Source of the DNA: Myxococcales bacterium
GTDB taxonomy: Bacteria; Myxococcota_A; Polyangia; Polyangiales; Polyangiaceae
Length of the DNA stretch: 64,000 nt
NCBI GenBank assembly: GCA_016212965.1
Contig: JACRDA010000071.1
Coordinates: 1 to 64,000 of the forward strand
Direction: 5' to 3'
Position 1 is the first letter of the stretch. Every line of letters starts with the position of its first letter. Both the position numbers and the translations under genes were made by a program. Of the stretch, positions 6,926-45,648 are shown piece after piece. Below the pieces are notes generated by a model. The model was given only the letters and a program-made list of their open reading frames with translations, was not told the origin of the DNA and made no database searches.

Positions 6926-8695
6926 ATGTCGCTCTCCGACCTCGGCCTCGTCGGCAACTGCCAGGTCGCGGCGCACGTACGTCGGGACGGGGCCGTCGTG
7001 TGGTGCTGTCTGCCGCGCTTCGACTCGGCGCCCGTCTTCGGCGCGCTCCTCGACGAGGCCGAGGGCGGACGCTTCTCGATCGGGCCCGCCGGCACCGCGC
7101 CCGGCGAGCAGCGCTACGTGCCGAACACCAACGTCCTCGAGACGCGCTTCGACACGCCGGACGGCTCCTTTCGCGTCCTCGACTTCGCCCCGCGCTTCGT
7201 GCAGTACGAGCGCAGCTTCCGGCCGACCAAGCTGGTGCGCATCGTCGAGCCCCTGTCGGGCACGCCGCGCATCCGCGTGCTCTGCGATCCCATCCTCGGC
7301 TGGTCGAAGCGCCGGCCGCGACGCGAGAGCGGGTCCCATCACGTCGCGTTCCACGGCTACGACGCCGAGCTCCGCCTCACGACGGACGCCCCGCTCGCCT
7401 ACCTCGACGGCGAGCCCTTCGCACTCACGGGGCGGCGACACTTCGTGCTCGCGTGGGGCGCGCCGGTCGAGGAGCCGCTCGAGCCCCTGTGCGACCGCTT
7501 CCTGCGCGAGACGACGCGCTACTGGCAGGAGTGGGTCAAGCACTGCGACATCCCGTCGCTCTTCCAGGAAGAGGTCATCCGCTCCGCCCTGGCGCTGAAG
7601 CTCCACTGCTTCGAGGACACGGGCGCCATCGTGGCCGCCTTGACGACCTCGATCCCCGAGGCGCCGGGCTCGGGTCGCACCTGGGACTACCGCTACTGCT
7701 GGCTGCGCGACGCCTACTACGCGCTCGGCGCCTTCCGCCTGCTCGGGCACTTCGAGGAGCGCGAGCAGTTCCTGCACTACCTGCTCAACGTCGCCTCGTC
7801 GGCGCCCGACCTCGATCTCGCGCCGCTCTACCGCATCGACGGCAAGAGCGACCTCGAGGAGCAGATCCTCACGGCGTGGCCGGGGTTTCGCGGCGAGGGG
7901 CCCGTGCGCGTGGGCAACGGCGCGGCCCGGCACAAGCAGCACGACGTGTTCGGCGAGATGGTCCTCGCGCTCACGCCGCTCTTCCTCGACGCCCGCTTCC
8001 GCGATCAGGCCACGCCGCCGGTGCTCGATCTCGTCACGCGCCTCGCGCGCCGGGCGGTCGCCGTCGCGGGGCAGCCCGACGCCGGCATCTGGGAGTTCCG
8101 CTCCGGCTGGCGACCGCAGACCTTCAGCTCGCTCATGTGCTGGGCGGCGGCCGACCGCATGAGTCGCATCGCGGCGCAGCACCGGCCCGCCGACGCCGAG
8201 GAGTTCGCCGCGGCTGCGACCCGGATCCGCGAGGAGATGCTGACGCGCGCCGTCGACGCCACGCGCGGCTGCCTCGTGGCGGACTACGGCGGCACCGAGG
8301 TCGACGCGGCGCTGCTGCAGGCCGTGACCCTGCGCCTGTTGCCGAAGGGCGACCCGCGCACGCGCGCGACCGTCGAGGCCATTCGCCACGATCTCGAGCG
8401 CAACGGCTGGCTCATGCGCTACCGCAGCGACGACGGCTTCGGCGTACCCACCGTGGCCTTCACCCTGTGCACCTTCTGGCTCGTGGAGGCGCTCGCGCGC
8501 CTCGGGCAGGAGGACGAGGCGCGGGCCGTGATGGAGAGGCTCCGCACCGTGGTGTCACCGCTCGGCCTCCTGGCGGAGGACGTCGAGCCCGCGAGCGGCA
8601 CCATGTGGGGCAACTTCCCCCAGGCGTACTCGCACGTGGGGCTGATCCACGCCGCCTTCACGGCGTCGCCGCGCTGGTCGGAGTTCGGGACGTGA
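6926..8695 (+). CDS. Glycoside hydrolase family 15 (glucoamylase/trehalase-like)
   Basis: About 589 residues from the ATG at 6926; a start 36 bp upstream is also open, but homology-like sequence (SDLGLVGNCQVAAHV) begins at this ATG. The N-terminal beta domain is followed by the (alpha/alpha)6 catalytic domain, with WDYRYCWLRDAY (about 255-266) holding the general acid region and the late block LLAEDVEP containing the base Glu. No signal peptide is evident, so it is cytosolic. GH15 enzymes of this form hydrolyse alpha-glucans or trehalose. Divergence from otsA across 59 bp suggests trehalose turnover. Its stop overlaps the next gene (GTGA). Confidence 0.83.
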   Translation: MSLSDLGLVGNCQVAAHVRRDGAVVWCCLPRFDSAPVFGALLDEAEGGRFSIGPAGTAPGEQRYVPNTNVLETRFDTPDGSFRVLDFAPRFVQYERSFRPTKLVRIVEPLSGTPRIRVLCDPILGWSKRRPRRESGSHHVAFHGYDAELRLTTDAPLAYLDGEPFALTGRRHFVLAWGAPVEEPLEPLCDRFLRETTRYWQEWVKHCDIPSLFQEEVIRSALALKLHCFEDTGAIVAALTTSIPEAPGSGRTWDYRYCWLRDAYYALGAFRLLGHFEEREQFLHYLLNVASSAPDLDLAPLYRIDGKSDLEEQILTAWPGFRGEGPVRVGNGAARHKQHDVFGEMVLALTPLFLDARFRDQATPPVLDLVTRLARRAVAVAGQPDAGIWEFRSGWRPQTFSSLMCWAAADRMSRIAAQHRPADAEEFAAAATRIREEMLTRAVDATRGCLVADYGGTEVDAALLQAVTLRLLPKGDPRTRATVEAIRHDLERNGWLMRYRSDDGFGVPTVAFTLCTFWLVEALARLGQEDEARAVMERLRTVVSPLGLLAEDVEPASGTMWGNFPQAYSHVGLIHAAFTASPRWSEFGT

Positions 8696-14727: not shown

Positions 14728-16182
14728 TCAGCAGAACCACCGCCCGAGCTGGAGCGCGACGCGTCCGCTCGTGGCGGTCAGGAACTGCTCCACGGCCACG
14801 TCGGACGCGAGCTGCTGCAACGGCGTCGACCAGGTCGGATACGCGTGGATGGTGGCGGCCAGATCGCGGATCCGGAGTCCGTGTTGCAGGGCGAGGGCGA
14901 TCTCGCCGATGAGCTCACCTGCGTGCGCGGCTACTATGCTCGCGCCGAGAAGCCGGCCGTCGCGCCGGGCCACGAGCTTGATGAAGCCCGCGACCTCGCC
15001 CTCGCACACGGCGCGATCGGCGCGCGCCATCTCGAACCGGTGGATGACGACGTCGTCATCGAAGCGCGCCTTGGCTTCCGTCTCGCCGAGGCCGACGTGC
15101 GCGACCTCGGGGTCGAGGAAGGTCACCCTGGGCACGACGTCGCTGGTGCCGCGAGCGTTGCCGGGCAGGAGCGCATTGCGCACTGCCTGGAAGCACTGCC
15201 AGCCCGCGAAGTGGGTAAACTGAGGGCCACCCGTGACGTCGCCCGCCGCGAGGATGTGAGACACGTTCGTCCTCAGGTTGGCGTCGACCGGGATGCCCTT
15301 GGCGCTGTGGATGACACCGGCACGCTCGAGGTCGAGGCCTCCGATGTTCGGCTTGCGACCAGTCGCCACGAGCAGGAGGTCGCCGCGCGCCGAGCCCGCG
15401 GTGGTGTCGATGACCGTCTCGTCGCCTTCGCGCCTGGCGGCGGTTGCCCGGCCCCGCACGAGCGAGATGCCCTCCGTCGCAAGGATCGCCTCGACCACCG
15501 CGCGCGCGTCGTCCTCCTCGCGCGGCAGGATCTGCTCGCCGACCACCGTCACCGCCGCGCCGAGGCGCCGGTAGGCCTGCGCCATCTCGAGCCCGATGGG
15601 ACCGCCACCGAGGACCACGAGGTGCCGCGGCAACCGGTCGTTGTCGAAGAGCTGCTCGTAGGTGACGTAGGGAACGTCCCCAAGGCCGGGGACGGGAGGA
15701 AGCGCCGGACGCGCACCGGTGCAGACGATGAAGTATCGACCGCGGATCAGGCGCTCGCCGGCCTGGACCGTGTGCGAGTCGACGAAGCGCGCCTCCGCCT
15801 CGACGACGTCGATGCCGAGGCGCGCGAGGGCGCCCGGGCTCTCGTGGCGGTACACGTCGTCGATCGCGCCGCGCACGTAGGCGCGGACCCGGCGCATGTC
15901 GACCTCAGGCGGAGCGGCATGGACGCCGTAGTGCGCTGCATTCCGCACGGCGTGTGCGACCTTCGCGGCCTTCAGCAGGGCCTTGCTCGGCACGCACCCG
16001 GTCCAGGTGCAGTCGCCGCCGATGCGGTGCCTCTCGACGAGCGCGACTCGGGCACCAATCTTGCGAGCAAACGCCGCGCCGGTGAGCCCCGCCGAGCCTG
16101 CGCCGATGACGACGAGATCGTACGGTTCGGTGGCTGCCTGCGCCTCGGCGTTCGCATGCGGGCGCTCCTCTCCGGTCCCCAT
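14728..16182 (-). CDS. FAD-dependent pyridine nucleotide-disulfide oxidoreductase (MerA/lipoamide dehydrogenase-like)
   Basis: About 484 residues from ATG 16182; a TTG 18 bp upstream is less likely. FAD-binding GAGSAG is near residue 26, the redox-active disulfide is in GGDCTWTGCVPSKAL (C-x4-C), the NAD(P)-binding fold is at VVLGGGPIGLE, and the second FAD block is ILAAGDVTGG. The C-terminal HAYPTWSTP carries the catalytic-base His region. It lacks the C-terminal Cys pair of true mercuric reductase, so it is probably not MerA. It lies 1 bp after the GTPase/methyltransferase gene, third in that operon, and may supply dithiol reducing power to it. Confidence 0.82.
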   Translation of the reverse strand: MGTGEERPHANAEAQAATEPYDLVVIGAGSAGLTGAAFARKIGARVALVERHRIGGDCTWTGCVPSKALLKAAKVAHAVRNAAHYGVHAAPPEVDMRRVRAYVRGAIDDVYRHESPGALARLGIDVVEAEARFVDSHTVQAGERLIRGRYFIVCTGARPALPPVPGLGDVPYVTYEQLFDNDRLPRHLVVLGGGPIGLEMAQAYRRLGAAVTVVGEQILPREEDDARAVVEAILATEGISLVRGRATAARREGDETVIDTTAGSARGDLLLVATGRKPNIGGLDLERAGVIHSAKGIPVDANLRTNVSHILAAGDVTGGPQFTHFAGWQCFQAVRNALLPGNARGTSDVVPRVTFLDPEVAHVGLGETEAKARFDDDVVIHRFEMARADRAVCEGEVAGFIKLVARRDGRLLGASIVAAHAGELIGEIALALQHGLRIRDLAATIHAYPTWSTPLQQLASDVAVEQFLTATSGRVALQLGRWFC

Positions 16183-16183
16183 C

Positions 16184-17965
16184 TCACGGCCTTTCTGCAA
16201 CGATCGCGGTGTAGCGCACCACGCCCGAATCGACGGCGCGCTCCGCCTCCTTCAGCGTCGCCCGGGCCGCGCGAATGTCGAAGGGCGCTGTCGCCGGCCG
16301 CTCCGCGCTCGCCGCGGCGAAGGCGGCACCGACGAGGTTGCGCTTGATGCGGCGCAGGAGCTCGCGCAGGCCGTCCGAAGCGTCCCAGCGCTCGACCACC
16401 CGGAATCCCCCGTCGCGGAGCGCCTGCGCGTAGGCCTCGCCCGTCATCGCGCGCGCGAGGCACGTACCCGTGTGGACCCAGTCTCGCAAGGTCTCGGGGA
16501 TCGCGCCCTCGATCGCCATGTCGGAGAGCGCGAGGCGCCCGCCCGGCCTGAGGACGCGGCGCATCTCGCGGAGGGCGAGCGGCTGGTCGAAGAACGTCGA
16601 GAGCGCGCACTCGCAGAGGACCGCATCGAACGCGCCAGCCTCCGCCTCGCTCGCATGAGCGTCCCCGCGGCGCAGCTCGAGCCGTTCGTCGCTCTGCCCG
16701 CGCGCGCGCGCGTCGAGCCCGAAGCCCCGAACGCCGAAGCGCTCGACCACGCTGCGCAGGCTCGTCCCCTTGCCGCACGCGACGTCGAGGACGCGGTGAC
16801 CGGCGGCGAGGCCGAGCTTGTCGGCGAGGGCGAGCGTGAGCTCGACGCCCCCCGGGTGCCAGGAGTCGCCGAGCAGGGCGCGCACGTCGTCCCGGTCGTA
16901 GAAGGCGGCGCAGCACGAGGCATCGTCGCCCGAGCCGCAGCGGAAGGCGTAGCGATGCCGCGGCGTCGGCCGCGAAGGCTCGAAGGCTTCGACCTTGCTC
17001 CAGGCGACGGACGCTGGAGCTGCGGCCTCGGCGAGCGCGCGTTCGAGACGCCCGAGCAAGACCTTCGGCGGCAGCGCCACGCGCGCATTGACGAGCCAGC
17101 GCGCCTCGCGCACCGGCTCCGAGGAGCTACCGGGCTCGAGCCTCGGTGCCTCGCGGGCGCGCACGACCGCCGCTCGCCCTCCGCCCGGCTCGAGGCTCGT
17201 CAGCTTGAGATGCGCGATCGGCGTGTCTGCCATCGCATCGCACGCTCTTCGCATCAGGTCGGCGGCGTCGAACGGCTCCTCGCCCCGGATCACGACCTCG
17301 GCGTTGCACCAGCCGAGCAGGGCCTCCGCGGCCGCGTAGCGGTCGTAGTCGATCGCGAGCGGCGCCGCGGGTCGCTCGGGCCGGGCGGCGAGCCAGTCGT
17401 CGATGCCCTGACCCGTGACGCCAGATACCCGCACCCATGTCGCGTGCGGGGCGATGCCGTGCACCGCGTCGCGCACGTCCGGGAGATCGAGGTCGGCGCG
17501 GCTCGCGAGCACGACGTCGGCCTCCTCGATCTGCTTGCGGAAGAGGTACGCCACGTCGGCGGGAAGGCGTCCAGAGAGCGCCTCCCCGACGCGCGCCGGG
17601 TCGACCACGACCGCGAGCGGCGCGAGTTCGAAGAGCTCCGGCTGGCGATCGGCGAGAGGAGCGAGCACCGTCGCGACGAGGTCGGTGCAGCTGCCGACTG
17701 CTTCGGCGATGACCACCGTGGCGCCGCTCGCCGCCGCCGCACGGAGGGCGCTCTCGAGCTCGTCGTAGCGACAGCAGAAGCAACCGCCGACGATTTCCCG
17801 CACCTCGGCATCGGCGCGACAGTCGGCCGAGTCGACGAGGGAGCGCCCTTGGTCGTTCGTGACGATGACGACGCGCTCACCGCGCTGCGTCAGCTCGCGC
17901 GCAAGCGCGCGTGCGAGCGTGGTCTTGCCCGCGCCGAGAAACCCGCCGAGGACGTGGACGCGCAT
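16184..17965 (-). CDS. Fusion protein: G3E (CobW-like) GTPase + ArsM-like SAM methyltransferase
   Basis: About 593 residues. The N-terminal half is a G3E GTPase: Walker A GGFLGAGKTT (about 7-16), the metal-binding GGCFCC (about 60-65), and a CobW C-terminal domain to about 335. The usual NKxD base-recognition motif appears as SRAD. The C-terminal half (about 350-593) is a class I methyltransferase with VLDVACGKGTS. Its cysteines in LCECALSTF and HTGTCLARAM align by eye with the two active-site cysteines of arsenite methyltransferase ArsM. G3E GTPases deliver metals to enzymes, so a self-loading metalloid methyltransferase is an attractive but unproven idea. Start ATG 17965 overlaps the radical SAM stop (TGATG). 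Confidence 0.78.
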   Translation of the reverse strand: MRVHVLGGFLGAGKTTLARALARELTQRGERVVIVTNDQGRSLVDSADCRADAEVREIVGGCFCCRYDELESALRAAAASGATVVIAEAVGSCTDLVATVLAPLADRQPELFELAPLAVVVDPARVGEALSGRLPADVAYLFRKQIEEADVVLASRADLDLPDVRDAVHGIAPHATWVRVSGVTGQGIDDWLAARPERPAAPLAIDYDRYAAAEALLGWCNAEVVIRGEEPFDAADLMRRACDAMADTPIAHLKLTSLEPGGGRAAVVRAREAPRLEPGSSSEPVREARWLVNARVALPPKVLLGRLERALAEAAAPASVAWSKVEAFEPSRPTPRHRYAFRCGSGDDASCCAAFYDRDDVRALLGDSWHPGGVELTLALADKLGLAAGHRVLDVACGKGTSLRSVVERFGVRGFGLDARARGQSDERLELRRGDAHASEAEAGAFDAVLCECALSTFFDQPLALREMRRVLRPGGRLALSDMAIEGAIPETLRDWVHTGTCLARAMTGEAYAQALRDGGFRVVERWDASDGLRELLRRIKRNLVGAAFAAASAERPATAPFDIRAARATLKEAERAVDSGVVRYTAIVAERP

Positions 17966-19272
17966 CACGACTGCCCCCGCGGGCGCCGGAGCGTGTTGTA
18001 CTCGCAGAGCGACACCGGCAGGCCCTGTCGGTCGACGACGTGTACGCAGCAGCGATCGACGCGGTCCCGGTCGTAGCTGTGCGCGTCCATGAACGGTTTG
18101 ATGCCGATGAGCACGAAGCTCCGGTAGTCGCTCCAGTTGGCGCGCTCGTCGCCGTCCGCGAGCAGGTCGAGCAACGATTCGACGAGCGCGTCGTCGCCGA
18201 GCGTCTCGAGCATGGTCTGGGGCATGCGATCGGCGAAGCGCTCGATGGTCGCGGCAACTGCAGGCTCGCGCCAGGAGTCGAACTGCGGAAAATAGCGCGA
18301 CACCGGGATGACCTTGCCGTCACGCACGAGGCCGACGGCGAGGGCGAAGCAGTTCGGGTGCGAGCACGGGATGGGACCGAAGTCCTCGGGCGCGAAGAGG
18401 CCGTCGGTCTGGCGCGCCACCTCGCGCGCCACCTCGGCGAGCGTGACCCGCTCGCCCCCGCCCACGCCCGCGCGCTCCCCCTCATAGCGCCCGGCGTAGA
18501 ACGCTGGCTGGAGAATGACCGTGTTCATCTTCGGGTGGTGCTCGAGCACGAGGCGCACGACGGCGCCGATCTCGTCGAGGTTCACCCCGCGGGTCACCGT
18601 CATCACCGGCAGAACGTAGAGGCCGACGGCGAGGAGGTTCTCGATGGCTTTGCGCTTCTCGCGGTAGAGCCCCCTCTTGCCCCGGATGAGCTCGTAGGTG
18701 CGGTCCTCGAAGCCGTCGAACTGCAGGTAGAGCTGCAGCCGGTCCTGGCCGGCGTCGATGGCGGCGAGGCGCGCAACGAAGTCCCTGTCCTTCGCGATGC
18801 GGACGCCGTTGGTGTTGAGGTAGATCTTGCGGACGCCGCGCGCGAAGGCGAGCTCGATCATGCGCTCGACATCGGGGTGGATCGTCGGCTCGCCGCCCGA
18901 GATCTGGACGATGTCTGCGTTGCTCTTGCCCGCCCCGAGCAGCTGCCCGAGCTGTCGCTCGAAGTCGTCGAACGAGAGCTGGTAGGCGTGCTCGGGGCTC
19001 GAGCCGCTGAAGCAGGTGGGACAGGTGAGGTTGCAGCGCTCGGTGATCTCGAAGATGAGCGTGCAGCTGTGGTTCAGGGTGCAGCAGCCCTTGCCGCCCT
19101 CCGGGCCGGCGTTCCAGTAGCGGCGCGCGTCGTCCGCGAGGAGCGTCTCGTCGGGACCGTGGTCGGGGCAGTTCTTCGTCAGGTAGACGCGCCCATCCCG
19201 CTCTTCCACGCGCGCCGGCAGCTCGGTGAGGCAGGTCGGGCACACGCTCTTCGTCGTCTTGAGTAGCTGCAT
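17965..19272 (-). CDS. Radical SAM protein of the Tes/MJ0619 (tetraether synthase-like) type
   Basis: About 435 residues from ATG 19272; an open frame extends 93 bp further but has no good start. It begins with a metal-ribbon: CPTCLTEL ... NCPDHG. The radical SAM cluster motif CNLTCPTC is near residue 100, then ISGGEPT. C-terminal cysteines occur in IPCSHPNC and DRCCVH. A ribbon followed by radical SAM is the layout of the archaeal tetraether-lipid synthase family, which couples lipid tails through C-C bonds. Its substrate here is unknown. First gene of a three-gene operon with the GTPase/methyltransferase and flavoprotein; divergent from ECF sigma factor 1. Confidence 0.8.
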   Translation of the reverse strand: MQLLKTTKSVCPTCLTELPARVEERDGRVYLTKNCPDHGPDETLLADDARRYWNAGPEGGKGCCTLNHSCTLIFEITERCNLTCPTCFSGSSPEHAYQLSFDDFERQLGQLLGAGKSNADIVQISGGEPTIHPDVERMIELAFARGVRKIYLNTNGVRIAKDRDFVARLAAIDAGQDRLQLYLQFDGFEDRTYELIRGKRGLYREKRKAIENLLAVGLYVLPVMTVTRGVNLDEIGAVVRLVLEHHPKMNTVILQPAFYAGRYEGERAGVGGGERVTLAEVAREVARQTDGLFAPEDFGPIPCSHPNCFALAVGLVRDGKVIPVSRYFPQFDSWREPAVAATIERFADRMPQTMLETLGDDALVESLLDLLADGDERANWSDYRSFVLIGIKPFMDAHSYDRDRVDRCCVHVVDRQGLPVSLCEYNTLRRPRGQS

Positions 19273-21222: not shown

Positions 21223-23220
21223 TCAAGCGGCGGCGCCGGACAGCAGTGTCATGAGCGACTCCGTCGCCTCGATGGCGTCGAGCGGCCTCCGCGCTTCGAG
21301 CAGATGGGCGAGCACCGCCTTGTTGACCTTGCCGAGGCGCTTCGGCGTGAGAACCGTACCCGCCGCGCGGAGCGCACCGCGCAGGAGGGCCTCGGCCACG
21401 AGCCGCGCCGCGAGCGCGCGTCCCACGCGCGAGCCCGCACCGATGGCGCTCCACACGAGGTCGAGGTCGACGACGCCTTTCTGTCCCGCGAGGGCCGCCA
21501 CCGGAACGACCTCGCGCAGGGCTGATGTGGCTTCGCGCAACATCTTGCTGAAGACCGCCGCGCTGCCGAGGCCGAAGTCCCTCTGGGACTCCTTGGCAAA
21601 CATCGTCGCGCCCGCGACAGCCGCCTCGAGCGCGGCGTGAACGAGCGTGTCTCCCACCGGCGCAGCGACGGACGGAGATTCCTCGAGGGCCGCGTCGGTC
21701 GCGCGGAACTCCAGGGTCGCGTCGCTCGACCGCGCCTCGAGCCAGGCGGTGGTCGCTGCGTCGCTGTCACCCTTGGAGGAGTCGCGCCGGTGCGCGGTGG
21801 CGACGAGCATGGCGGTGGGGTTGCCCTGGGAGAGCGAGATCAAGCTCGTCTGGGAGCGGTCGCGGACTGCCAGCACGCCGGTCGCCGTGGTCCGGCGCAG
21901 CCAGGCGAAGAGGCCCGCCGGCCGCACGATCTCGCTTGGGAGCGGTCCGAGCACGCGGTCGCCGTTCGCCCAGGCGCGCAGCGCCGCGACGACGGAAGGC
22001 TCGACCTTGCGCACGACGAGCGCGCCCTCGCCGCGCGCCATCGCTCCGGAGACGACCGACTTCGTCGTGACTGGGCGCGCAACCCCTCGCTCCACCTGCA
22101 CGGCCAGCGTCGGCCTGCCGGCGACGAAGGCGATGAGGTCCGCCTGCCCAACTCGATGCACGAGAAAGAGCGCAGCGCCCTCGGCGCTTTCCTCCTCGGC
22201 GAGGCGCAGCGTCGCGCCCACGTTCGCGAGCCGGATCTCGAGCAGGTGGGCGCCCGGCGGAGTCGTGAAGGGAAGCCCCGCACTATCTGCCAGCACCGTG
22301 AGCTCGCTCGTCCGCGCCTGAATCGTCGCTACTTGGCTCGTGTCGGCGAGCGGTAGCGGCGGCGTCACGGTCTCGTCATGCGCGCTGCCGCCGAGGGCGC
22401 GCTCCACGACCTCGGCGGTCTGCACCCGGTCGCGTGGATCGCGCGCCAGCATGCGCGTGATGAGCGCGACGATGTTCGGCGGCAGGTCAGGGGCGAGGTC
22501 CGTGATCGGCACGGGATCGGCGTGCAACCGAGCCACGAGCTGCTGGAGCGGGTCGTCGCCGTGGAATGGGTACGTGCCCGTCAGCATCTCGTAGAGCATC
22601 ACGCCGAGGCCGTAGATGTCGCAGCGTCCGTCGACGGGACCGCCTTTCACCTGCTCGGGCGAGATGTAGAGCGGCGTACCGACGGCCATCCCCTGCTGCG
22701 TGAGGCGTTCGCCGCCCGCGGCCGTACCGGCCGAAGCGATCCCGAAGTCGGTGAGCACGGCGCTGCCGTCGGGCGCGATCATGACGTTGTCCGGCTTGAT
22801 GTCGCGATGGAACACGCCCTTGCCGTGCGCGTGGGCGAGCGCCGCCGCCACCTGGCGCCCGATGCGCTTGACCCACTCGAGCGGTAGGGCGCCACGGGCG
22901 TCCATCAGCGCTCCGAGCGTCGTGCCCTGCAGGAGCTCCATGACGATGTAGTGGACGCCCTGATCCTCGCCGACGTCGGCGACGCGCACGATGTTCGGGT
23001 GGCGCAGGCTCGCCGCGAGCCGGGCCTCGCGCAGGAAGCGAGCCGTGTCGGTCGCGTCCTCGCCCGCGCCGTGGTGCCGGCCTAGGGCGAGGATCTTCAC
23101 GGCGACCGACAGTTCGAGCGCCTCGTGCGTGCCCTGGTAGACGTCGCCCATGGCGCCACTGCCGAGCAGGCGCTCGATGCGGCACTTGCCGATGGTGCGA
23201 CCGATCATCGACTCGGTCAT
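21223..23220 (-). CDS. Serine/threonine protein kinase with C-terminal sensor-like region
   Basis: About 665 residues from ATG 23220, which overlaps the stop of the upstream HAMP-type gene (ATGA). The Hanks-type kinase domain (about 10-275) has GSGAMGDVY, VAVKI (ATP-binding Lys), FHRDIKPDNV, LTDFGIAS and GTPLYISPEQ, all catalytic residues intact. The following 380 residues contain an Ala/Leu-rich region resembling the C-terminal domains common on myxobacterial kinases. No transmembrane helix is seen, so it is cytosolic unless tethered by its 2-TM partner. It ends the possible bufA2-ahpD-HAMP-kinase unit. Confidence 0.85.
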   Translation of the reverse strand: MTESMIGRTIGKCRIERLLGSGAMGDVYQGTHEALELSVAVKILALGRHHGAGEDATDTARFLREARLAASLRHPNIVRVADVGEDQGVHYIVMELLQGTTLGALMDARGALPLEWVKRIGRQVAAALAHAHGKGVFHRDIKPDNVMIAPDGSAVLTDFGIASAGTAAGGERLTQQGMAVGTPLYISPEQVKGGPVDGRCDIYGLGVMLYEMLTGTYPFHGDDPLQQLVARLHADPVPITDLAPDLPPNIVALITRMLARDPRDRVQTAEVVERALGGSAHDETVTPPLPLADTSQVATIQARTSELTVLADSAGLPFTTPPGAHLLEIRLANVGATLRLAEEESAEGAALFLVHRVGQADLIAFVAGRPTLAVQVERGVARPVTTKSVVSGAMARGEGALVVRKVEPSVVAALRAWANGDRVLGPLPSEIVRPAGLFAWLRRTTATGVLAVRDRSQTSLISLSQGNPTAMLVATAHRRDSSKGDSDAATTAWLEARSSDATLEFRATDAALEESPSVAAPVGDTLVHAALEAAVAGATMFAKESQRDFGLGSAAVFSKMLREATSALREVVPVAALAGQKGVVDLDLVWSAIGAGSRVGRALAARLVAEALLRGALRAAGTVLTPKRLGKVNKAVLAHLLEARRPLDAIEATESLMTLLSGAAA

Positions 23221-23591
23221 GTGTCCGCCTCCGCATGGGTCGCATCGAGGCGGGAGATGATCCGCGCCGTGCTCTTCTCGATCTCGTCGATCTCGTTGCT
23301 CACCAGGATGCCGGGCAGCGGCGGCGGCACCGTCCCAACGACGACGCGCTCGAGCGTGTGAAGCTTCTGCACGAACGACCGGAGCAGGGCCTTCACGAAG
23401 ACGTACATACCGAAGGCGTAGGCGACACCGAGGAGCAGGCTGACGGCGACGTAGAGCACCGTCGGGCCTGCCCACGCGCCGCCCGCGAACGCGATCCCAA
23501 CGAGCGGCGTCGCGATGCCGATGACGAGGCCCGATCCCATGATCGAGAGGAAGAGCTTCCACATGGCCGGCAGCTGGCGCGAATCGTCCAC
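23217..23591 (-). CDS. Two-helix membrane protein with HAMP-like linker
   Basis: 124 residues from GTG 23591. Two transmembrane helices (about 10-35 and 42-70) are followed by a cytoplasmic HAMP-like stretch (VKALLRSFVQKLHTLERVV...ISNEIDEIEKSTAR pattern, about 70-115). There is no output domain of its own; its stop overlaps the kinase start. A membrane anchor or input unit for the kinase is the simplest reading. The upstream AhpD-like gene ends 37 bp before it. Confidence 0.6.
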   Translation of the reverse strand: MDDSRQLPAMWKLFLSIMGSGLVIGIATPLVGIAFAGGAWAGPTVLYVAVSLLLGVAYAFGMYVFVKALLRSFVQKLHTLERVVVGTVPPPLPGILVSNEIDEIEKSTARIISRLDATHAEADT

Positions 23592-44763: not shown

Positions 44764-45648
44764 ATGAGCGTCGAGCAACTCGAAGGCGTGGGTCTCGGTC
44801 TGCGCTGGGAGTTTCTGCACGAGGTGCTCGGCGCCGCTCCCGGCGCGCTCGACGCCATCCGGTTCTTCGAGGTGGCGCCCGAGAACTACATGCGCCGGGG
44901 GGGCTACTTCCCCCACGCTCTGGCGACCGTCGCGGAGCGCCACCCGGTGACGACGCACGGCCTCACGCTCTCACTCGGCGGCGCCGACCCGCTCGACGCG
45001 GACTACCTCGCGGAGCTTCGCCGGTTCCTCGGGCGTTTCGGCGCCGGCTGGCACTCCGACCACCTGTGCTTCTCGGGCGCCGGTGGGGGCGTCTTGCACG
45101 ACCTCTTGCCGGTCGCCTTCACGACGAGCGCGGCGAAGCGCGTCGCCGCGCGCGTGCGCGAGGCGAGCGAACGACTCGGCCTTCCTGTCGCCGTCGAGAA
45201 CATCAGCTACTACACGACGCTCGGCGGCGACCCGCGCGATGAGCCCGCGTTCATCGCCGAGGTCCTCGAGCGCGCCGACTGCGGCCTGTTGCTCGACCTC
45301 AACAACCTCGACGTCAACGCCGAGAACCACGGCTTCGACGCGCGCGCCTGGCTCTCCGGGATCCCGCTCGAGCGCGTGGTCGAGATCCACGTCGCGGGCC
45401 CCGAGCGCTGGAGCGATGCCCGTGCCGAGCTCCTCGTCGACACCCACGGCGCCCCGGTGCGCCCGCCCGTCTACGAGCTCCTCTCGCGCGTCATCTCACG
45501 CACGGGCCCGGTGCCCGTGCTGCTCGAGCGCGACAACAACGTCCCGCCGCTCGCGGAGCTCCTCGACGAGGTCGCGGCGATCGATCGGGTGTATCGCTCG
45601 GCCATCGCGAAGTGGCGCGCCGTGCACGAGGGACGCCATGCAGCCTGA
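44764..45648 (+). CDS. MNIO (DUF692) oxygenase of the second RiPP locus
   Basis: About 294 residues; ATG 44764 is preferred to 44758, which stands only one base after GAGGAG. DUF692 barrel blocks with probable iron ligands: THGLTLSLGG, HSDHLCFSG, ENISYYTTLGG, LLDLNNLDVNAENHGFD, IHVAGP, DTHGAPV and LLERDNNVPP. Overall it is clearly diverged from the bufB copy at 25452, in line with a different precursor. It would oxidise Cys residues in the GSCGAK repeats. It overlaps the DUF2063 gene by 11 bp, as in the first locus. Confidence 0.86.
   Translation: MSVEQLEGVGLGLRWEFLHEVLGAAPGALDAIRFFEVAPENYMRRGGYFPHALATVAERHPVTTHGLTLSLGGADPLDADYLAELRRFLGRFGAGWHSDHLCFSGAGGGVLHDLLPVAFTTSAAKRVAARVREASERLGLPVAVENISYYTTLGGDPRDEPAFIAEVLERADCGLLLDLNNLDVNAENHGFDARAWLSGIPLERVVEIHVAGPERWSDARAELLVDTHGAPVRPPVYELLSRVISRTGPVPVLLERDNNVPPLAELLDEVAAIDRVYRSAIAKWRAVHEGRHAA

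Follow-up and report, generated by a model that had tools for sequence, protein, structure and literature searches.

The window analysed here, a 64,000-nucleotide stretch of contig JACRDA010000071.1 (GCA_016212965.1) from a Myxococcales bacterium, contains three minus-strand genes that form one packed unit. They specify a radical S-adenosylmethionine (SAM) protein (17965..19272; 435 amino acids from ATG 19272), a fusion of a G3E GTPase domain, a middle domain and a methyltransferase domain (16184..17968), and a pyridine-nucleotide-disulphide-type flavoprotein with FAD and NAD(P) domains and a disulphide-reductase fold (14728..16182; ATG 16182). The stop of the radical SAM gene and the start of the fusion gene overlap by four nucleotides (GTGATG), and a single nucleotide separates the fusion stop from the ATG of the flavoprotein gene. 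The fusion has 594 residues if read from GTG 17968 and 593 from ATG 17965; the ATG, which overlaps the TGA stop of the radical SAM gene, is the more likely start. A preliminary description of this DNA had proposed three tightly packed genes at 16184-19272. The packing is borne out by the coordinates and reading frames; the range holds the radical SAM and fusion genes, but the flavoprotein gene lies just outside it. All of the motifs quoted there (GGFLGAGKTT, GGCFCC, SRAD, LCECALS and TGTCLAR) are present.

The radical SAM protein is matched by NF045646, NF045702, PF04055, PF23545 and the solved structure 7TOL, the fusion by PF02492 and PF13847/PF13489, and the flavoprotein by PF07992 and PF02852. 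Pfam E-values ranging from 1.1e-18 (PF02492) through 2.4e-18 (PF23545 ribbon) and 6.7e-20 (PF04055) to 1.2e-54 (Pyr_redox_2) mean that these domain matches are not due to chance; the methyltransferase domain gave 2.4e-14. The same gene order occurs at four other loci (L009, L015, L014 and L012, the last at a contig end) with 38–71% identity, in support of a conserved three-gene unit. By profile, the operon represents a divergent version of the NCBI-named unit of TrsS and a DVU_1556-family methyltransferase, with the radical SAM protein and the methyltransferase both scoring below the curated cut-offs.

The Tes-like radical SAM protein

The best NCBIfam match of the radical SAM protein is TrsS (NF045646; 267.6 bits, curated cut-off 490) and the second is the tetraether synthase Tes (NF045702; 217 bits, cut-off 450), neither cut-off being reached. 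TrsS is the best named family for this protein, and the gene adjoins that of a DVU_1556-type methyltransferase. The TrsS cut-off was reached by none of the sampled relatives, nor in 235 genomes of the phylum of locus L049. TrsS appears among the predicted selenoproteins of a review published in 2026 (PMC13188914), with a citation of Haft and Tolstoy 2025; no function for TrsS or for the DVU_1556-family unit was found assigned in the literature surveyed.

Tes (7TOL) is the closest solved relative (E=2.7e-55; with a profile, E=2.5e-117). The protein possesses a rubredoxin-type ribbon, CX2CX20CX2H (C11, C14, C35, H38; 19159..19242), and the radical SAM motif CNLTCPTC (C80, C84, C87; 19012..19035), both invariant in 25 of 25 sequences. 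The ribbon spacing is the same as in Tes, C9X2C12X20C33X2H36 (PMC9433317), and the Tes/MJ0619 layout ascribed to the first gene in the preliminary description is thereby confirmed. The Pfam name of the ribbon, HMPTM, suggested a pterin methylase; this candidate was rejected, MJ0619 having been re-assigned to Tes (PMC9692996, PMC9433317).

The loop of the N-terminal auxiliary cluster is shortened. Tes and the other TrsS-like proteins have CPxxCGLCPxH at this point, whereas the protein in the window has GCCTLNHSC (C63, C64, H68, C70; 19063..19086), that is, three cysteines and one histidine in another spacing, with H68 and C70 invariant. The ligands of this cluster in Tes are C73, C77, C80 and a histidine, an arrangement that is altered here. 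In the C-terminal auxiliary-cluster region (18004..18366) the alignment identifies cysteines in PCSHPNC (C303, C308), RCC (C408, C409) and LCEYN (C423). C303 and C308 are invariant and the remaining three are conserved in at least 90% of 25 sequences, and the RCC and FC elements are common to 7TOL; most cysteines of this cluster in Tes are thus retained.

Tes abstracts hydrogen from an inert carbon, which then becomes bonded to a sulphur atom of an auxiliary cluster, and a sulphur-containing lipid builds up when SAM is limiting (PMC9433317). Chemistry of the same kind can be expected of the protein studied. That it is itself a tetraether synthase is unlikely from the sequence, because two Tes residues, Met439 and Tyr459, are replaced by Lys392 and Val412, and with 217 of the 450 bits this candidate was rejected. 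Both residues are invariant among 1000 archaeal Tes homologues (PMC9433317), and methionine and tyrosine were found in the archaeal control L077, a true Tes by score (618 bits).

The relationship to Tes bears on one rival explanation, in which the radical SAM protein would join or modify lipid tails by C-C coupling, the methyltransferase would methylate a head group or tail, and the cysteines of the latter would be otherwise used. It gains from Tes being the closest solved relative and from the proposal that bacterial Tes homologues are the makers of branched glycerol dialkyl glycerol tetraethers (PMC8941075), and loses by the exchange of the two invariant residues and by the low Tes score. 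Two more Tes-like radical SAM proteins are specified by the same genome (C286:17214-18599, L002; C410:12150-13022, L003); they show 28–29% identity to the one studied and have very long branches.

The GTPase–methyltransferase fusion and the flavoprotein

The G3E (CobW/COG0523-type) GTPase domain of the fusion (17369..17968) scores 67.9 bits with PF02492 against a cut-off of 20.7. Its model, with a predicted local distance difference test (pLDDT) value of 88, has YjiA (Zn), HypB (Zn) and UreG (Ni) as nearest solved folds. The Walker A motif GGFLGAGKTT (17918..17947), the EXXG motif and a putative metal-binding CXCC motif, GGCFCC (17771..17788), are invariant in seven of seven fusions. The guanine motif is SRAD (17492..17503), with S156, R157 and D159 invariant (7/7); it reads SRAD or SRRD in all seven proteins, the aspartate being retained and an intact NKXD absent. 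Both the G3E metallochaperone-type GTPase and the substitution of SRAD for NKXD had been recognized in the preliminary description and are upheld. The middle domain (16955..17368; IDYxRYAAAEALLGW ... AHxKLTSL) is conserved across the fusions and matched no Pfam family above the cut-off.

CXCC defines the COG0523 proteins, a subset of which is tied to zinc, and the G3E proteins characterised so far serve to insert or store metal cofactors (PMC2770081). Most simply, the fused GTPase would be the loader of the cysteine site of the methyltransferase. Since the cofactors of known G3E clients are Zn, Ni, Co or B12, that site is more likely to hold a metal than arsenite, and the presence of a fused metal insertase speaks mildly against arsenite as its occupant.

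The class I methyltransferase domain, TrsM (16184..16954; model pLDDT 89), is of the DVU_1556 type. The DVU_1556 family (NF045667) is its best match although the cut-off of 155 is not reached (131.7 bits for the fusion, 134.3 for the domain alone), and all 30 methyltransferase relatives match this family. Conserved features include an N-terminal pair, Cys352-Cys353 (16910..16915; 31/33 and 33/33), an HPGG motif (16847..16858; PGG invariant, histidine in 32/33), Glu453-Cys454 in ECALS (16607..16612; 33/33) and Cys503 in TGTCLAR (16460..16462; 33/33). In an alignment of 33 TrsM and 25 ArsM sequences, Cys454 and Cys503 occupy the columns of the third and fourth catalytic cysteines of ArsM (303 and 365), both of which hold cysteine in 25/25 ArsM and 33/33 TrsM proteins. 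The correspondence of two cysteines with those of ArsM, noted by eye in the preliminary description, was thus recovered by alignment.

Identity with ArsM itself was not supported, and ArsM was rejected as a candidate. The domain scores 57.3 bits (the fusion, 54) with the ArsM model NF008823, short of the cut-off of 263. Four cysteines are the rule for ArsM (PMC8552651). The second of these (Cys72-type, in GLGCGNP; column 200) is present in 25/25 ArsM sequences, and all 33 TrsM sequences have a gap there. In the methyltransferase tree the protein falls outside the ArsM clade, the 25 ArsM rows lying on one side of a branch (support 100/99) and the 33 TrsM rows on one side of another (96/92); with five generic outgroup rows only and long branches, sisterhood of ArsM and TrsM is undecidable from this tree.

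Among solved structures, TrsM comes closest to RebM/AtmM/MitM-type and phosphoethanolamine methyltransferases. The 50 best structural matches do not include ArsM, an absence that by itself proves nothing. Where TrsM has ECAL, MitM has ESII and AtmM has ESLH, showing that the cysteine set is not general to the fold; the glutamate is common to RebM/MitM-type enzymes, while ArsM has asparagine in its place. By profile, fold and tree TrsM is best described as a RebM/MitM-like methyltransferase with added cysteines, and it may bind a thiophilic atom, a metal or a metalloid substrate, at its active site. The lipid explanation finds some encouragement in fold neighbours that include phosphoethanolamine methyltransferases and mycolic acid/cyclopropane synthases. 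However, similarity among class I methyltransferase folds is unspecific, MitM and AtmM lack the invariant cysteine set and, to our knowledge, so do the phosphoethanolamine methyltransferases and the mycolic acid/cyclopropane synthases.

The explanation offered in the preliminary description was organoarsenical or metalloid biosynthesis, in which TrsM would bind and methylate As(III) and the radical SAM protein would form an As–C bond, possibly to a lipid. It draws on the two cysteines lying in As(III)-binding ArsM columns and on NF008823 matching all 30 TrsM members, second to DVU_1556 by best E-value. It stays a live alternative because both known pairs of a radical SAM protein and a cysteine methyltransferase, ArsS/ArsM and ArsL/ArsM, make organoarsenicals (PMC8552651, PMC12159101); this operon would be the third such pair. 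The flavoprotein is MerA-like, an ACR3-type SBF transporter and, by eye, ArsR lie near L062, and mer-like genes near L010 and an arsenate-reductase-like (ArsC) gene near L009 were also seen by eye. Arsenic genes are, however, present at single loci only, and by Pfam no arsenic family was recurrent among the 117 neighbours. The glutamate of the EC motif, the low ArsM score, the missing Cys72-type column and the tree all point elsewhere, the genome of the window already has a true ArsM (C301; 332.7 bits), and we know of no G3E protein that handles arsenic. On balance this explanation is considered unlikely. Among ArsM genes of the same phylum, five (L119, L120, L123, L125 and L127) contain a single in-frame TGA, consistent with selenocysteine-containing ArsM.

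The flavoprotein scores 427 bits with PRK06370 and 368 bits with MerA (TIGR02053), the latter below its cut-off of 454. The redox CxxxxC (GGDCTWTGC) is present in all 11 operon copies. HPTxxE, the catalytic dyad of disulphide reductases, is changed to YPTWST, and Y-P-(T/A) without the glutamate is found in 11 of 11 copies. Of the "disulfide reductase" named in the preliminary description, the fold and the redox cysteines therefore stand but the catalytic dyad does not, and a role as a plain disulphide reductase appears unlikely because the histidine has become tyrosine and the glutamate is lost in every copy. More plausibly, it feeds electrons to the clusters or reduces an unusual substrate.

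Distribution, alternative partners and neighbouring genes

A scan of species genomes gave 79 loci. A DVU_1556-type methyltransferase adjoins the radical SAM gene in 33 sequences. The pair is found in Myxococcota, Gemmatimonadota, Planctomycetota, Pseudomonadota, Chloroflexota, Actinomycetota and a Heimdallarchaeote. The only other widely recurrent partner is a flavoprotein of this type, near some 16 loci with the pair (counted 10 or 11 times by Pfam among the 117 neighbours). Only one clade of radical SAM proteins, with eight members from three phyla (support 100/100), is associated with a methyltransferase fused to the GTPase. Seven of the eight have the GTPase: the window shares its fusion with six relatives, namely L009, L012, L013, L014, L015 and, for the GTPase part only, L011, which ends before the methyltransferase; in L010 the fusion gene is deleted. 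The fusion was found in one of 329 sampled genomes of the phylum of the window and in none of 38 nearer relatives, a rare and patchy distribution of the kind that horizontal transfer would be expected to leave. Both trees, that of the radical SAM protein and that of the methyltransferase, group the fusion clade with gammaproteobacterial pairs, which argues that the pair travels together.

At L010 (9150-9300) the radical SAM gene runs out of frame into the middle of the flavoprotein gene, the fusion gene and the neighbouring ends being gone; this junction may reflect either a genuine deletion or a collapsed assembly. Gammaproteobacterial copies of the operon (L017–L019) have a DUF547 gene (PF04784 in L017) inserted between the radical SAM and methyltransferase genes, and in L009 and L015 a divergent DUF547 gene is located upstream.

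Radical SAM relatives without the methyltransferase are in nearly all cases adjoined by the gene for an Lgt-family membrane protein (PF01790; E 8e-23 to 2e-34 in three tested). Fifty-two loci had 2.5 kb or more of sequence on either side. The methyltransferase is present at 21 of these and Lgt at 27, the two never occur together, and the remaining four loci lack both. When the Sphingobacterium near-copies are left out, the counts become 21, 15 and 0 of 40 (Fisher p = 1e-7, with no correction for descent). In a second sweep, which covered 235 genomes of one phylum, 20 loci included about 11 with Lgt, two with the methyltransferase, one of them the known L049, and again none with both. On the tree the partner label changes at least five times (about 5–7), and the division thus does not go back to one split.

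The known reaction of Lgt is the alkylation of a thiol by a diacylglyceryl group, and a methyltransferase with a cysteine site could methylate a thiol. The alternation of the two suggests that both may act on sulphur placed by the radical enzyme. As a neighbour, Lgt also gives indirect support to the lipid idea of the preliminary description, and at four actinobacterial loci there is a neighbour cluster of which one member, that of L041, was tested and proved to be a CDP-alcohol phosphatidyltransferase. Weighed together with the points raised above, the lipid explanation is nevertheless given a low probability.

Elsewhere in the window, the segment 24262-26333 (minus strand) specifies an MNIO enzyme (PF05114, E=3.9e-109), a DUF2063 protein and an 87-amino-acid cysteine-rich, bufferin-like peptide. 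A second MNIO gene is located at 44785-45591 (plus strand), 19 kb beyond the first. In L009 (about 7620-7905) and L015 (7632-7910) a small exported lipoprotein-like open reading frame with several cysteines (AGSCGA...ASCGATGSCGA) lies directly upstream of the radical SAM gene; none was seen at that position in the window. A small two-helix membrane protein without a Pfam family is specified at 23217-23591 (minus strand); the gene for one homolog, with 42% identity, immediately follows that of the flavoprotein in L049, and L009 has another at 1043-1378.

The MNIO operons raise a further explanation, that of a metal-stress island in which the unit would mature a metal cofactor, a pterin or a small cysteine-rich, bufferin-like peptide, the GTPase serving the final metal. 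In the window, L009, L015 and L010, such operons with small cysteine-rich peptides are no more than about 7 kb away from the radical SAM gene, although MNIO genes number only three to four per genome, and the cysteine-containing lipoprotein-like frame of L009 and L015 also counts in favour. Yet the orientations differ, the gemmatimonadotal and planctomycetotal loci showed no such operon, no RRE (peptide-recognition) or SPASM domain was detected in the Pfam scan, and synteny among the myxococcal loci may account for the proximity. Cofactor or peptide maturation is accordingly held to be quite improbable.

Proposed pathway and comparison with known systems

The explanation preferred here, put forward tentatively, is that TrsM receives a metal in its cysteine site from the GTPase, the radical enzyme forms a C–S bond and TrsM caps the sulphur with methyl. 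A thiophilic metal, most likely Zn(II), would be bound at the CXCC site of the G3E domain, and GTP hydrolysis would load it into the cysteine site of the fused TrsM (Cys352/353, Cys454 and Cys503). The 5'-deoxyadenosyl radical generated by the TrsS-like protein would attack an unactivated sp3 carbon in a hydrophobic substrate, removing hydrogen, and this carbon would be coupled to a sulphur of the C-terminal auxiliary cluster, as Tes does when short of SAM, its release giving a thiol. SAM-dependent methylation of the metal-activated sulphur by TrsM would follow, and the flavoprotein would draw on NAD(P)H to reduce the clusters or a thiol/disulphide pool. The gene order, the domains, the conserved residues and the co-occurrence of TrsS and TrsM across phyla are direct observations, while every substrate, the identity of the metal, the methylation of sulphur and the part played by the flavoprotein are inferred.

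In favour of the metal-loading and sulphur-capping pathway are the three-position cysteine set of the methyltransferase, which is conserved in the alignments and is absent from its nearest solved relatives MitM and AtmM, the recurrent pairing of radical SAM protein and methyltransferase, the GTPase motifs (7/7) and the zinc- or nickel-bound nearest folds of the GTPase, the sulphur lipid of Tes, and the mutual exclusion of methyltransferase and Lgt. Several points weigh against it. Most TrsM proteins have no GTPase either fused or adjoining, so the metal step would not be general, and the guanine motif of the GTPase is SRAD rather than NKXD. Met439 and Tyr459, two residues around the C-terminal cluster of Tes, are exchanged, though neither is needed for Tes activity, and the flavoprotein is without the usual disulphide-reductase dyad. 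With only about 5–7 switches on the tree, the exclusivity of the two partners could also stem from lineage. The probability left by this pathway and the three rivals belongs to none of these.

More broadly, the bacterial Tes/TrsS-like family might constitute a radical sulphur-insertion platform, in which auxiliary-cluster sulphur would be put onto an unactivated carbon, with interchangeable capping partners, TrsM adding methyl or an Lgt-like enzyme adding diacylglyceryl. This generalization is regarded as improbable; if true, it would explain why one partner or the other, never both, is present, and would imply new thioether lipids or metabolites, the sulphur insertion being a step that in Tes leads to an intermediate only. 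As Lloyd et al. noted (PMC9433317), Tes homologues also exist in bacteria for which biphytanyl chains are not known, and their reactions there are open. The partner genes, a cysteine methyltransferase with a flavoprotein or Lgt, and the fused metal insertase provide testable hypotheses for these homologues. The operon would also place a third pair of radical SAM protein and cysteine methyltransferase, directly assayable, beside the two known organoarsenical pathways.

Among known systems, TrsS shares with the unit the adjacent radical SAM and methyltransferase genes, the ribbon, CX3CX2C and the C-terminal cysteines; the operon in the window differs in its GTPase-fused methyltransferase, its shortened N-terminal loop and the lack of an extra C-terminal CxxC and of an in-frame TGA. 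With Tes it has in common CX2CX20CX2H, the radical SAM core and the C-terminal RCC...FC cluster region, whereas an extra PCxxPxC pair and the methyltransferase and flavoprotein partners set it apart. The COG0523/G3E GTPases (YjiA, ZigA, CobW) have the same Walker A, EXXG and CXCC motifs and the same fold, but the protein here carries SRAD for NKXD and is joined to a methyltransferase via the middle domain. ArsM, and the ArsS/ArsM and ArsL/ArsM pairs, resemble TrsM in the class I fold, the cysteines at the third and fourth columns, the N-terminal CC and the radical SAM partner, while TrsM forms a separate clade, with HPGG in the Cys72 region, glutamate instead of asparagine before the central cysteine and a partner of another radical SAM family. 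PRK06370 and MerA, finally, share with the flavoprotein the FAD and NAD(P) domains, the dimerisation domain and the redox CxxxxC, but the flavoprotein of this operon has YPT for HPTxxE and no C-terminal MerA cysteine pair.

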